NCBI RefSeq assembly: GCF_023634645.1
Contig: NZ_JAMKMR010000010.1
Coordinates: forward strand, 62,001 to 126,000
Length of the DNA stretch: 64,000 nt
From: Vibrio sinus
Lineage (GTDB): Bacteria > Pseudomonadota > Gammaproteobacteria > Enterobacterales > Vibrionaceae
Direction: 5' to 3'
Shown: in pieces, positions 3,892 through 44,312 of the stretch
Layout: every line of letters starts with the position of its first letter
Position numbering within the stretch: the stretch's first letter is position 1
Translations under genes and position numbers: made by a program
The notes under the pieces: model-generated
Told to the model about the DNA's origin: nothing
Database searches by the model: none
Seen by the model: only the letters and a program-made list of their open reading frames with translations

Positions 3892-4746
3892 TCAACTGGA
3901 TGAGAGAGTGAAGGTGGCTATCAGTGGATTATGATCGGATGCATCGGTTGTCGGAGATGTCGCTTGATCTAGGGTTAAACCGCGATAAAACAGGTGATCA
4001 AGTGGTAGCCCGTTAATAAACTGCTTACGATTGTCTGGGCTAAACGGCACTTCTTCCACCCCAATTTCGTGCAGATTGCGCTTTAACACTTTCCAACGTA
4101 CTGCGCTCCAGCTATTAAAATCACCACCAACCAAAACAGGACCAGAGTGATCCAACAATCGGCTGACCAGGGTCTTTATTTGCTCTTGATATTCCTTTGT
4201 GCCATAAGTGAAATTAATGGCATGCAAATTCACTACCGCCAACGATTGACCATTTGATAGCTTATATAAGCTAAACAACCCCGACTTGGGTAGTCGAATC
4301 CAAGGCTCTTTTTCTGTATAGGCGCACGCAAAAAAAGGGGCAGAGGTAGACAGGCTAAGTACGCCTGCTGGCACTTTGAATGCTTTAAAGGCGTCCACTT
4401 GGATAGCAAATTTGTTGTCATCGGCTATCCATTTTTCTAACTCTGGCGTTAAGCTAGATTCTTGCAATAATATCAACTGGGTATTGGCAGAAAAACGCGC
4501 TAACGCTTGCTGCCAATTGTCGCGATTCTGCTTATAAATATTCCAAACTAAGACGTTGATTTTGCCATTGTTATCAATTGGCTGCGAATCACTGTTCTCA
4601 TAGCAAAACACATGCTTTTCTATTTTTTGACCATCGATAATCGATAAGGTCGGGGCACTTGGCAGGTCAAACACTAGTGAATAGCCAGTCGCAACCGAAG
4701 CGGACACCGCCGTTATCACCCCTATGATCTTAGTTTTTTTCTTCAT
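3892..4746 (-). CDS. yafD: YafD-like endonuclease/exonuclease/phosphatase-family protein
   Basis: A 284-residue protein of the UPF0294/YafD branch of the EEP (DNase I/exonuclease III-like) superfamily. A hydrophobic N-terminal segment (about 7-25) suggests membrane anchoring or export. The catalytic pattern is complete: VWNIYKQN with Asn69, LQES with Glu96, NLHAINF with His175, GGDFNSW with Asp209 and Asn211, LDHLF with Asp250 and His251, and the terminal SDHNPL with Asp271 and His272. It therefore looks like an active metal-dependent phosphoesterase, though the substrate of YafD proteins is not established to my knowledge. It lies 34 bp downstream of glnB on the same strand and could share its transcript. 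Confidence 0.88.
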   Translation of the reverse strand: MKKKTKIIGVITAVSASVATGYSLVFDLPSAPTLSIIDGQKIEKHVFCYENSDSQPIDNNGKINVLVWNIYKQNRDNWQQALARFSANTQLILLQESSLTPELEKWIADDNKFAIQVDAFKAFKVPAGVLSLSTSAPFFACAYTEKEPWIRLPKSGLFSLYKLSNGQSLAVVNLHAINFTYGTKEYQEQIKTLVSRLLDHSGPVLVGGDFNSWSAVRWKVLKRNLHEIGVEEVPFSPDNRKQFINGLPLDHLFYRGLTLDQATSPTTDASDHNPLIATFTLSSS

Positions 4747-26393: not shown

Positions 26394-26500
26394 TTTAAAA
26401 TCCTCTATGGGGTTAGGCCTCCACATCCCCCATGTGTCCGACTTGACCGCTTTCGCTTCAAGCACCCCGGAACATGTGTCGGAATGTGTGTGATTTAAAG
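26394..26500 (-). promoter_or_regulatory. rpsB leader (probable S2-binding autoregulatory element)
   Basis: The ~100 bases before rpsB contain repeated complementary blocks, including GACACATG at 26430s and 26470s and GGGG/CCCC partners around 26410-26440, able to form a hairpin or pseudoknot ending near the Shine-Dalgarno. In gammaproteobacteria S2 represses rpsB-tsf through a conserved 5' untranslated structure. Position and base-pairing fit; I did not fold it. Confidence 0.5.
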
Positions 26501-26560
26501 ATAAAATTTAGTTGGACGTAATCTGCCTCGCTTAGTACAGAGAAAACAGACCATCTATCC

Positions 26561-40787: not shown

Positions 40788-42077
40788 TTAACCGATTGTG
40801 TACTTCACAATAAAAATAACAGCCATCACGTAAACACTGATGGATACTGTGCGCCCCTTACCGCTTAATATTTTTATTGCTGCATAAGAGATGAAACCAA
40901 ACGAAATACCTTCTGCAATAGAAAACGTTAGAGGCATCAATAAACACGTGACAACGACAGGGGCCGCCTCGGTTAAATCTCGCCAATCTACGCTCACTAG
41001 TCCGGAAAGCATTAAAATTGCCACATAGAACAAGGCTCCAGAGGTCGCGTATGCTGGTATCATCCCCGCAAGTGGGGAGAAGAATAAAGCAAGCAAGAAG
41101 AAAACGCCAACAACAACTGCTGTGAGTCCTGTGCGCCCTCCTTCCGCTACGCCAGAAATACTTTCAACATAAGAAGTGGTATTGGAAGTGCCAAGCAGAG
41201 CACCAATTGACGTAGCTGTTGAGTCGGCAAGCAAGGCTCTACTCAATCTAGGAATTTTGCCATCTTTGCCTATCAAGTTCGCTTTTGATGCGACGCCAAC
41301 TAAAGTGCCAGCAGTATCAAACAAATCAACAAAAAGAAAGGCAAATACCACTGAGATCATGCCGACATTGAGTAGGCCAGAAAAATCCAACTGCAAAAAT
41401 GTTGGAGCAATGCTTGGCGGGGCCGACACAACCCCCTGCCATTGCACATCACCAAACACTAAGCCCAAAGCGGTGACGGCTAATATCGCGATCATCACGG
41501 CACCTTTTACGCCGCGCTGTACCAAACCAATGGTGACAAAAAAGCCTAAACAAGCTAAAACCGCATGCAAAGAGGTGATATCACCCAAAGTAACGAAGGT
41601 CGCCGGGCTTGCTACGACAATACCCGCATTTTTCAACGCGATAAACGCCAGAAATAAGCCAATACCTGCGGAAATCCCCGTACGAAGCGAAAGAGGGATG
41701 GAGTCAATGATAAGCTCTCGAATCTTGGCCAGGCTCAACAAGATAAAAAGGCAGCCAGAAACAAATACAGCAGCGAGTGCCACTTGCCAGGTGTATCCCA
41801 TCCCTAACACAACGGAATAAGTAAAAAACGCGTTCAGCCCCATACCTGGCGCCTGAGCAATAGGTAAATTCGCCCAAAAGCCCATCACAAAACAACCAAT
41901 GGCAGCAGCTAAACAGGTGGCGACAAACACCGCTCCATGGTTCATCCCCGTGGCAGACAAAATTGCTGGATTGACAAAAATGATATAAGCCATTGTTAAG
42001 AATGTTGTTATTCCAGCAACACATTCTGTCTTAGCGTTAGTCCCATATTGACTAAGCTTAAATAACTTTTCTAGCAT
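40788..42077 (-). CDS. AzgA-type purine permease (NCS2 superfamily)
   Basis: A 429-residue inner-membrane transporter with about 12-14 helices, of the AzgA-like hypoxanthine/guanine/adenine permease subfamily. Signature segments are [19 protein letters not shown] near the N-terminus, [16 protein letters not shown] (about 74-89), the [18 protein letters not shown] segment (about 246-263) and [25 protein letters not shown]. coli homologues include AdeP, AdeQ, GhxP and GhxQ; which purine this one prefers cannot be decided here, but the adjoining gpt favours guanine or hypoxanthine. A PurR-like site overlaps its likely promoter. Confidence 0.92.
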
Positions 42078-42261: not shown

Positions 42262-42290
42262 TAAAAAAAGCCACTCAATTCGAGTGGCTG
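42262..42290 (-). terminator. Terminator of the 28-codon ORF transcript
   Basis: CCAGCCACTCG...CGAGTGGCT hairpin followed by seven T on the minus strand. It lies about 90 bp past the small ORF stop and 185 bp before the permease start. Confidence 0.88.
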
Positions 42291-42381
42291 GTGAATCAAT
42301 TCAGTTTGAAACTGTAAGTAAATTCTAAAATCAAGGGGGTACTTAACGACCAAAGAAGAAGTTGCTATAAGCGGAGAATCC

Positions 42382-42468
42382 TTAGTAACCAAAACTGGTT
42401 GGATATATAAACCTACCCGTAAACATGGCACCACGTTTCCAGTAAGTTGCAGATGGTAAACCTTTCAT
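42382..42468 (-). CDS. Candidate 28-residue small protein or leader peptide
   Basis: An ATG frame encodes 28 residues, from MKGLPSATYWKRGAMF to FIYPTSFGY. AAGGTG at 42475-42480 gives a good Shine-Dalgarno with 6-base spacing. A promoter (42579-42606) and a strong terminator (42262-42290) frame it as a unit of about 310 bases. The peptide is basic and rich in aromatics (three Phe, three Tyr, one Trp), with no signal peptide or clear membrane helix. I do not recognise a family. It may be a free-standing small protein, a leader peptide, or incidental to a small RNA. It was too short for a general ORF survey. Confidence 0.55.
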   Translation of the reverse strand: MKGLPSATYWKRGAMFTGRFIYPTSFGY

Positions 42469-42578
42469 AAATATCACCTTAATAGTCAATTGAACACAGA
42501 CAAATTACTCTCGGTTCCTTGGAGGCGATAGAACGGACTCATCCATTAAGCATTTTTCTTCTTTCGAAGTTGGTAATC

Positions 42579-42606
42579 AATATACCACAATGTAATTAAA
42601 TTACAA
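42579..42606 (-). promoter_or_regulatory. Candidate promoter of the 28-codon ORF
   Basis: On the minus strand TTGTAA (42601-42606), a 16-bp spacer and TATATT (42579-42584) with an extended TGG before it. Start predicted near 42572, giving a leader of about 104 bases with an AGGA/CCTCC-rich structured look. The rest of 42607-42839, upstream of pepD, is AT-rich; I see no further gene there. Confidence 0.6.
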
Positions 42607-42839
42607 CTTCAAGTGATTGCAGTTTTTAATGGCGCACTATTTAATCAAAAAAGAATAAAAAAGGTAATAAATTTTCACTAATAGTGTTTTGGTGTTGTTT
42701 TCTATCATCACGCGTAGCTATGCAAAAATAAAATCTATCTATTTGGCGAATTTCCTTTCCTACAAGCTTGTATCTGGTGTTATTCTTGGCATCCTGTACG
42801 CCTAAATGAAGTAATACAATTATTAACTAGGAGTGAACC

Positions 42840-44312
42840 GTGTCTGATACTCATTCTGAAATTAGCACCCTATCGCCACAAATTGTCTGGCAATTTTTTG
42901 ACAAGATTTGTTCAATCCCTCACCCATCCAAACATGAAGAAGCACTGGCACAATACATTGTCAGCTGGGCCACCAAGCAAGGCCTAGCAGTAAAAAGAGA
43001 TGACGTAGGTAACGTATTCATTAAAAAGCCAGCCACACCTGGCATGGAAGGTAAGAAAGCGGTTGTACTGCAAGCGCACCTTGACATGGTCCCACAGAAA
43101 AATGAAGAAACAGACCATGACTTTGTTAAAGATCCAATTCGACCATATATTGATGGTGACTGGGTCACCGCTGATGGCACCACCTTAGGGTCAGATAACG
43201 GTATCGGCATGTCATCTTGCTTAGCTGTGCTAGCTTCCAATGACATTAAGCATGGCCCTATCGAAGTCCTTCTCACCATTGACGAAGAAGCTGGCATGAC
43301 AGGTGCACAAAACTTACAACCTGGCTGGCTTGAAGGCGACATCCTACTTAACACTGACTCTGAGCAAGAAGGCGAAGTGTACATGGGGTGCGCAGGCGGC
43401 ATAGATGGAGAGATCTCTTTCAACATCGATAGGGTCAAAATGCCTGCAGGCTACATTGCCCGTGAGCTCACTCTAAAAGGCTTGAAAGGTGGGCACTCTG
43501 GCTGTGATATCAATACTGGTCGGGGTAACGCTAACAAACTGGTAGCCCGATTCCTAGCCGCACACAGCCAAGAACTAGACCTACGTTTAATTAGCGTAAG
43601 AGGTGGAAGCCTGCGTAACGCTATCCCTCGTGAAGCGTTTGTACAGGTCGCTGTACCTGCAGAAAATCAAGCGAAACTTGAGGAGCTGTTCGCTCAATTT
43701 ACCGCACTTATTCAATCTGAACTTGGTAGCATTGAGACCAGCATGGTGTCTTTCAATGAAGCGATTGAAGAGCCTGCCGATGTATTCTCCATGCACGATC
43801 AACAGCGCATCATCGCCACATTAAACGCGTGCCCAAATGGGGTTGTAAGGATGAGCGATGATATCGAGGGCGTAGTAGAAACTTCCTTGAACCTTGGCGT
43901 GATCACCACTGATGGCAACAAAGTGACTATCTTGTGCTTGATTCGCTCCCTAATTGATTCAGGTCGTCTGCAAGTTGAGAGTACATTGAAGTCAGTCGCG
44001 GAATTGGCCAATGCATCAATTGAGTTTTCTGGCGCTTATCCTGGCTGGAAGCCTGACCCTGATTCAGAAATCATGGCAATATTCCGTGATATGTATGAAG
44101 GTATTTACGGCAATAAACCAAATATCATGGTCATTCATGCTGGATTAGAGTGCGGCCTGTTTAAAAAGCCTTATCCAAATATGGACATGGTTTCGTTTGG
44201 CCCAACTATCAAATTCCCACATTCACCTGACGAAAAAGTAAAAATCGATACGGTGGCGTTGTATTGGGAACAAATGGTCGCTCTGCTAGAGAATATCCCA
44301 GACAAAGCGTAA
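42840..44312 (+). CDS. pepD: Cytosol non-specific dipeptidase (aminoacyl-histidine dipeptidase)
   Basis: A 490-residue M20-family zinc dipeptidase (peptidase D) that hydrolyses Xaa-His and other dipeptides in the cytoplasm. Metal and catalytic residues are visible: His80 and Asp82 (QAHLDM), bridging Asp119 (GSDNGIG), Glu149 and Glu150 (IDEEAG) and Asp173 (NTDSEQEGEV). The lid domain fills about 205-390. The start is GTG at 42840, with TAGGAG upstream; it encodes MSDTHSEIST, like family N-termini. Length is near that of E. coli PepD (485). A terminator follows. Confidence 0.96.
   Translation: MSDTHSEISTLSPQIVWQFFDKICSIPHPSKHEEALAQYIVSWATKQGLAVKRDDVGNVFIKKPATPGMEGKKAVVLQAHLDMVPQKNEETDHDFVKDPIRPYIDGDWVTADGTTLGSDNGIGMSSCLAVLASNDIKHGPIEVLLTIDEEAGMTGAQNLQPGWLEGDILLNTDSEQEGEVYMGCAGGIDGEISFNIDRVKMPAGYIARELTLKGLKGGHSGCDINTGRGNANKLVARFLAAHSQELDLRLISVRGGSLRNAIPREAFVQVAVPAENQAKLEELFAQFTALIQSELGSIETSMVSFNEAIEEPADVFSMHDQQRIIATLNACPNGVVRMSDDIEGVVETSLNLGVITTDGNKVTILCLIRSLIDSGRLQVESTLKSVAELANASIEFSGAYPGWKPDPDSEIMAIFRDMYEGIYGNKPNIMVIHAGLECGLFKKPYPNMDMVSFGPTIKFPHSPDEKVKIDTVALYWEQMVALLENIPDKA

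Follow-up and report, generated by a model that had tools for sequence, protein, structure and literature searches.

A compact transcription unit was found on the minus strand at positions 42262-42606 of the window, the 64,000-nucleotide stretch of Vibrio sinus DNA analysed here. It sits between pepD (42840-44312, plus strand) and a purine permease gene (40788-42077, minus strand), both named from an earlier sequence-only reading and from the sequence. Promoter, leader of ~104 nt, AAGGTG ribosome site, 28-codon ORF and terminator follow one another in this order, all where that reading had placed them. It did not include the CCCCC seed or the conserved leader element (42551-42510). The features are as follows.

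42613-42627, minus strand: remnant CRP site, from the alignment; right half TCAC retained, left half TGTGA changed to AAAAA
42579-42606, minus strand: promoter, with -35 TTGTAA (42606-42601) and TG-extended -10 TATATT (42584-42579)
42571, minus strand: predicted transcription start, from the -10 and V. cholerae numbering (PMC8672173)
42537-42551, minus strand: leader hairpin H1, GCUUA-AUGGA-UGAGU, the loop holding GGA
42510-42524, minus strand: leader element H2, CUC-CANGGAACY-GAG, with ANGGA in a possible loop
42475-42480, minus strand: ribosome-binding site AAGGTG, from sequence and alignment
42382-42468, minus strand: vcdP ORF, 28 codons and stop, peptide MKGLPSATYWKRGAMFTGRFIYPTSFGY, from the NCBIfam match, alignments and pN/pS
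42323-42344, minus strand: VcdR base-pairing region, with the CCCCC seed at 42339-42335
42262-42289, minus strand: intrinsic terminator, 9-bp stem (42289-42269) and T-run

Taken singly and from sequence alone, these elements are near chance. Four promoter-like sites were found on the two strands of the 1.1-kb region against 3.2 expected from shuffles, and one terminator against 0.6, so the case for the unit rests on comparison. Conservation shows the unit to be real; the proposal that its order exceeds chance was borne out in this way, although not by the single elements. Pfam and the phage collection gave no match, and Rfam gave below-threshold matches only in the region of the unit (best Trp_leader, 25.4 bits against 41). 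The sole gathering-level Rfam match in the window was a t44 RNA (RF00127) at 26412-26510 on the minus strand.

Identity of the unit and selection on its peptide

The peptide matched NCBIfam NF053523.1, "small protein VcdP", from end to end (residues 1-28; E 1.7e-13), its 50 bits equalling the cut-off of 50. The sequence-only reading, which had recognised no family, is superseded here; it had rightly singled out a regulator that is already known. The V. cholerae genes vc2278 and vc2279 are presumably the permease and pepD. Between them, on the minus strand, lies the 306-nt gene of VcdRP (formerly Vcr082), which carries a 29-aa ORF from nucleotide 104 and four consecutive C at the end of residues 223-232, as described in PMC8672173. 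With the start at 42571, inferred from the -10, the ATG of the window unit falls at 104, the length is ~310 and CCCCC lies at about 233-237. Given the VcdP equivalog match, the genomic place, the transcript size, the ORF start and the C-run seed, the unit is almost certainly vcdRP, a ~310-nt RNA with two products and the orthologue of the V. cholerae dual-function RNA VcdRP (Vcr082). Two ideas offered as alternatives, an unannotated small protein and an mRNA-like small RNA, thus hold jointly. A 29-codon version of the ORF (ATG-AAT-AAA-GGT...) was found in genomes G033 and G238. The 72 loci from a scan of named genomes included V. harveyi, V. anguillarum and V. splendidus, all of them in the seven-species alignment of PMC8672173, and no V. 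cholerae record; V. cholerae VcdRP was compared by its published description.

Three of the features marking VcdRP membership are present: the VcdP match, the pepD/permease locus and at least four consecutive C between ORF and terminator. A further one, a CRP site upstream of the -35, is absent in the window. CRP-like sites with 8 or 9 of 10 consensus positions lie there in 112 of 130 aligned sequences. The best upstream 16-mer of the window has 5 of 10, the lowest of the 130 and a value reached by every shuffle of its own upstream sequence. This loss is a matter of regulation, not of identity, and the VcdRP assignment was kept. Because the site has lost a half, CRP repression in this species is probably weak or absent.

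Genome searches, made as a limited first look that restricts the sensitivity of the counts, gave peptide matches at E ≤ 0.01 in 265 of 329 Vibrionaceae genomes from 9 of 13 genera, the own genome included. Against the refuting condition named in the sequence-only reading, an ORF frameshifted or absent in close relatives, most relatives keep the ORF, but 64 of the 329 had no match in this first look. At E ≤ 1, 33 of 61 genomes matched, counting the own genome and a few weak chance hits, and pepD adjoined vcdP in 29 and the permease in 27 of the 30 loci of that search. The 130 sequences used for alignment came from two overlapping collections and were made distinct by sequence only; L001 (the window copy) and L030 (internal stops) were dropped before the counts on alignment, leaders, pN/pS, pairing and seeds. 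Median pN/pS among 98 distinct ORFs was 0.39, with values below 1 in 99.6% of 4706 pairs, after exclusion of one gapped ORF of the 130 and of 47 of 4753 pairs whose pS did not exceed 0.1. The vcdP ORF is under purifying selection. Residues M1, W10, F20 and Y22 were invariant in 129 sequences, and the window peptide was 50-68% identical to those of 22 other genus members. At the positions matching residues 15-18 of the 29-aa form, the window alone has AMFT; SVYT is found in 102 of the 129 sequences. Alanine replacement of residues 15-18 inactivated V. cholerae VcdP (PMC8672173).

The conserved leader element

The most conserved segment of the unit lies in the leader. At 42554-42506, mean majority frequency in the 130-sequence alignment was 0.92 and 35 of 49 columns were at least 90% conserved. 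The corresponding counts were 16 of 28 for the promoter, 37 of 87 for the ORF, 11 of 22 for the seed region and, at a mean of 0.88, 22 of 34 for the terminator, with segment borders chosen after viewing the alignment. In conservation the leader equals or exceeds the peptide, the published seed and the terminator. Its element of ~50 nt carries two GGA motifs (42510-42551), one of them in hairpin H1, whose stem covaries in some of the tests below. ANGGA was present twice in 120 of 130 leaders, once in 9 and three times in 1. The H2 pattern occurred in 156 of 157 vcdP loci tested, window included; its N varies and the neighbouring positions are invariant. The H2 stem never varies, and its hairpin is a possible one. 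The exact H2 pattern was found in 34/34 tested genomes with a peptide match and was missing from 16 of 17 without one. The exception, G003, retains leader, C-run and terminator, its peptide having diverged beyond the search threshold.

The 4-bp H1 stem was possible in 84 of 84 anchored sequences (two of 86 rows lacked the anchor), with exchanges among GCUC/GAGY, GUUC/GAAC, GUUU/AAAC and GCUU/AAGC. With script-anchored arms, 32 of 33 distinct contexts could pair, genus g47 (described below) included, against a mean of 21.6 and a maximum of 27 in 2000 permutations; for Watson-Crick pairs only, the count was 20 against 7.8 and 15, the best of five 5'-arm offsets being used. We read the lone unpaired context as a misplaced anchor. 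In MAFFT alignment A3, which places some H1 arms out of register, all 500 shuffles fell below the observed value for two of five measures, namely paired cells (93.6% versus 92.4%) and double-change cells (12 versus 2.4). This did not hold for the other three: both-side-changed pairs (2 versus 1.8), pair types (5 versus 5.8) and covariation score (0.108 versus 0.102, 105 of 500). All of these tests ignore relatedness. RNAalifold on the leader alignment returned just the 3-bp H2 at -0.6 kcal/mol and no H1. The covariation analysis that the sequence-only reading had suggested was thus positive for H1 with anchored arms, with mixed or negative outcomes elsewhere and an invariant H2 stem.

CsrA sites in the Csr RNAs of V. 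cholerae are described as GGA in the loops of stem-loops (PMC7858070). The leader element resembles such sites, and csrA is present in the genome. From its conservation, the leader with its two GGA motifs may govern how much VcdP is made or how stable the RNA is, most likely as a putative CsrA-binding region. PMC8672173 mentions several sequence elements of high conservation, and a figure legend there refers to two VcdR base-pairing regions. Part of the leader element may be touched on in its figures or elsewhere in that paper; the words leader and CsrA are absent from its main text. Among the matches listed for VcdP, citrate synthase and CsrA, VcdP and CsrA co-occur only as unrelated mentions, and a search for VcdRP together with Aeromonas found no literature. 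Within the literature searched, no described function was found for the leader element.

A conserved four-codon upstream ORF present in many leaders (ATG-CTC-AAA-GGA-TGA) was rejected. Its start is ACG in several sequences (e.g. L017, L026, L131), and further on a one-base indel (GTTTATC/GTTTTATC) shifts the frame among species; what is conserved is therefore not a peptide. As a wider motif, CTCCANGGAACYGAG had one exact site in the own genome and one with one mismatch, the latter judged by eye to lie within a long reading frame; exact sites numbered 1-3 in 35 of 51 genomes tested, and the reversed control pattern occurred in G034 and G211. In three loci of other Vibrionaceae genera (L136:2067-2123, L148:1967-2023, L150:1001-1057), the permease start bears the H2 15-mer CTCCAAGGAACYGAG, with its AAGGA at the ribosome-site position directly after ACGCAAACGTT, which we take to be PurR-box-like. 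This arrangement was not seen before the window permease. At L135:1360-1460 (G097), two H2 patterns lie 44 nt apart in the same leader.

Seed pairing and seedless relatives

A C-run seed was identified by rule in 118 of 124 distinct Vibrionaceae loci. Predicted duplexes of the window seed region with gene start regions were compared with 348 control start contexts from window ORFs, which are non-independent as several candidate starts per ORF were used. The seed region paired at -22.1 kcal/mol with nagE and -21.8 kcal/mol with ptsH, with two of the 348 controls as low in either case. Pairing with treB was weak (-14.8 kcal/mol; 39 controls as low), and five other EIIC-family genes and gltA ranged from -6.6 to -16.9 kcal/mol (21 to 320 controls). 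The GTG starts of nagE and treB were assigned in this analysis, and the test covered seven of ten EIIC-family places (all but L166-L168) and one of three HPr places (all but L170 and L171). The published VcdR targets are ptsG, nagE, treB and ptsH (PMC8672173). No ptsG-type protein exceeded the TIGR02002 cut-off in genome G000, whose assembly is rated 100% complete; the best match was nagE, in two pieces, the better with 277 bits against 592. Citrate synthase over the NCBIfam cit_synth_I cut-off is present. Among the window contexts tested, the strongest predicted seed partner was the start region (approximately codons 5-13) of a 284-aa ORF at 3892-4746 on the minus strand, at -29.9 kcal/mol against a mean of -10.7 (sd 3.5) for the 348 start contexts. 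By eye this ORF is endonuclease/exonuclease/phosphatase-like, and it neighbours a glnB-like ORF.

The function of the window VcdRP is proposed by analogy with the V. cholerae experiments (PMC8672173). VcdP would bind citrate synthase (GltA) and raise its activity. The 3' part, VcdR, would act with Hfq, its C-run pairing with PTS mRNA start regions to lower sugar uptake; processing by RNase E would likewise be expected. As no ptsG was found, the partners in this species would be nagE, ptsH(I) and perhaps treB.

The six seedless Vibrionaceae loci comprise L027, the first copy of a tandem pair; L135, which has CCCC but no T-run found; L146, with no C-run in the usual place; and L132, L133 and L134. 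Two genomes of genus g33, perhaps Photobacterium, carry two vcdP copies each, one with a C-run seed (G119 and G140; L133, L132, L264, L265). The C-run copy adjoins a permease match; the seedless copy lies elsewhere, in fetched DNA that shows neither a pepD nor a permease match. In G075 a seedless copy occupies the usual locus. In G036 (L214, G036:C1:732500-733900), leader and vcdP are tandemly duplicated ahead of a single seed and terminator.

In an order-wide sample of 394 genomes, those with the peptide beside pepD were two from family f11 and three from genus g47 (family f25); a match in G565 (E 1.8e-4, one internal stop) was counted as chance. The two f11 loci have only CCC at the seed position. 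Family f25 gave matches in 35 of 75 genomes, all within g47 (35 of 37 there), a genus that we suspect to be Aeromonas. Thirty of these 35 loci were fetched. All 30 have a CRP-like site with 9-10 of 10 positions, adjacent pepD, and one or two H2 followed by one H1 ahead of the ORF, the reverse of the Vibrionaceae order; no permease match lay within the fetched 1.5-kb flanks. The Vibrionaceae-type C-run is missing in 24 of the 30, where a C-run is absent, beyond the T-run, or 10 nt before it and read as a terminator arm. The rule flagged the other six as seeded, doubtfully, from CCCC 9-10 nt after the stop (L251-L253, L256) or a C-run 10 nt before the T-run (L246, L249). Two g47 peptides scored 24 and 23 bits against NF053523, below the cut-off of 50.

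Leader and peptide look like the core of the unit, and the base-pairing seed looks like a part that can be gained or lost. We infer that the order of the elements, their copy number and the tandem duplication are more in keeping with independent protein-binding sites than with a single fixed RNA fold. PMC8672173 took the conservation of both functions in all Vibrio species tested there to mean that they are interdependent. The seedless relatives separate protein function from RNA function and speak against interdependence of VcdP and VcdR as a general rule.

Alternative readings and relation to known systems

That promoter, ORF and terminator stand in order by chance in intergenic DNA is a reading that only the near-random frequency of the single elements favours. 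It was refuted by the genome comparisons, with matches in 265 of 329 family genomes and pN/pS below 1 in nearly all pairs, and its probability is negligible. The sequence-only reading had also offered a leader peptide or attenuator for the downstream purine permease-gpt unit, which lies on the same strand. This now appears very improbable: the unit ends at its own terminator ~185 bp upstream of the permease start, the permease has a promoter-like site of its own (42168-42140), no run of regulatory codons is evident by eye, and the V. cholerae transcript is described as a separate 306-nt RNA (PMC8672173). Moreover, in g47 the leader and peptide adjoin pepD, the fetched 1.5-kb flanks show no permease match, and the second copies in G119 and G140 have neither pepD nor permease match in the fetched DNA. 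We consider it unlikely that the unit only encodes a small protein and lacks a base-pairing function in this species. Such a gene would resemble the seedless forms of 24 of 30 g47 loci, the two f11 loci with no more than CCC, the seedless copies of G119 and G140, and G075, and would agree with the weak treB pairing and the lack of a ptsG match. Against it stand the retained CCCCC and the strong complementarity of the nagE and ptsH start regions.

Instead of a CsrA element, the leader might be a cis switch: UAUCGCCU would pair with AGGUGAUA and mask the ribosome site. The window has 8-bp complementarity between the two, which forms part of its minimum-energy fold, and mean duplex energy over 80 leader/start pairs was -9.7 kcal/mol versus -6.7 for shuffled segments. 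However, the two sides do not co-vary: 197 of 200 random leader/start re-pairings gave a mean equal to or below the observed one, some start windows in this test having their anchor at an in-frame start further upstream. The fold is also no better than shuffles (z -0.99), and the order of H2 and H1 is reversed in g47. The switch thus seems rather improbable.

A more far-reaching reading, with less than an even chance of being right, is a vcdRP whose leader is a third functional part. This two- or three-site GGA element, probably bound by CsrA, would control VcdP synthesis and so tie citrate synthase activation to the carbon storage regulator. Leader and VcdP would form an older core, shared with a genus of another family in which a CRP site of nearly perfect match lies ahead of it and the C-run is mostly missing. 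The pairing seed would be a part that can be gained or lost, separating the two functions in two-copy genomes. What had been an unknown peptide now belongs to a regulator already characterised for its role in carbon uptake and the citric acid cycle; beyond the published work found, the conserved leader element and the seedless forms are new.

Among known systems, CsrA-bound leaders and CsrB-type RNAs share with the vcdRP leader GGA in (possible) hairpin loops, several per RNA and in an order that differs between lineages, a likeness of motif only. SgrS/SgrT of enteric bacteria is likewise a dual RNA with its ORF upstream of a PTS-directed pairing site (according to PMC8672173); its control and protein target differ, and no sequence relation is claimed. 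VvdRP of Vibrio vulnificus, another Vibrio, is a named homologue measured by RT-qPCR and likened here by description (PMC9737408). Closest is VcdRP of V. cholerae as described in PMC8672173. Compared with it, the window unit encodes 28 rather than 29 aa, has AMFT in a region essential there, a degraded CRP site and five C instead of four, in a genome where no ptsG was found. It agrees with it in place, strand, length (306-310 nt), ORF start at 104, peptide family, terminator, C-run seed and the kinds of predicted targets, nagE, ptsH and perhaps treB.
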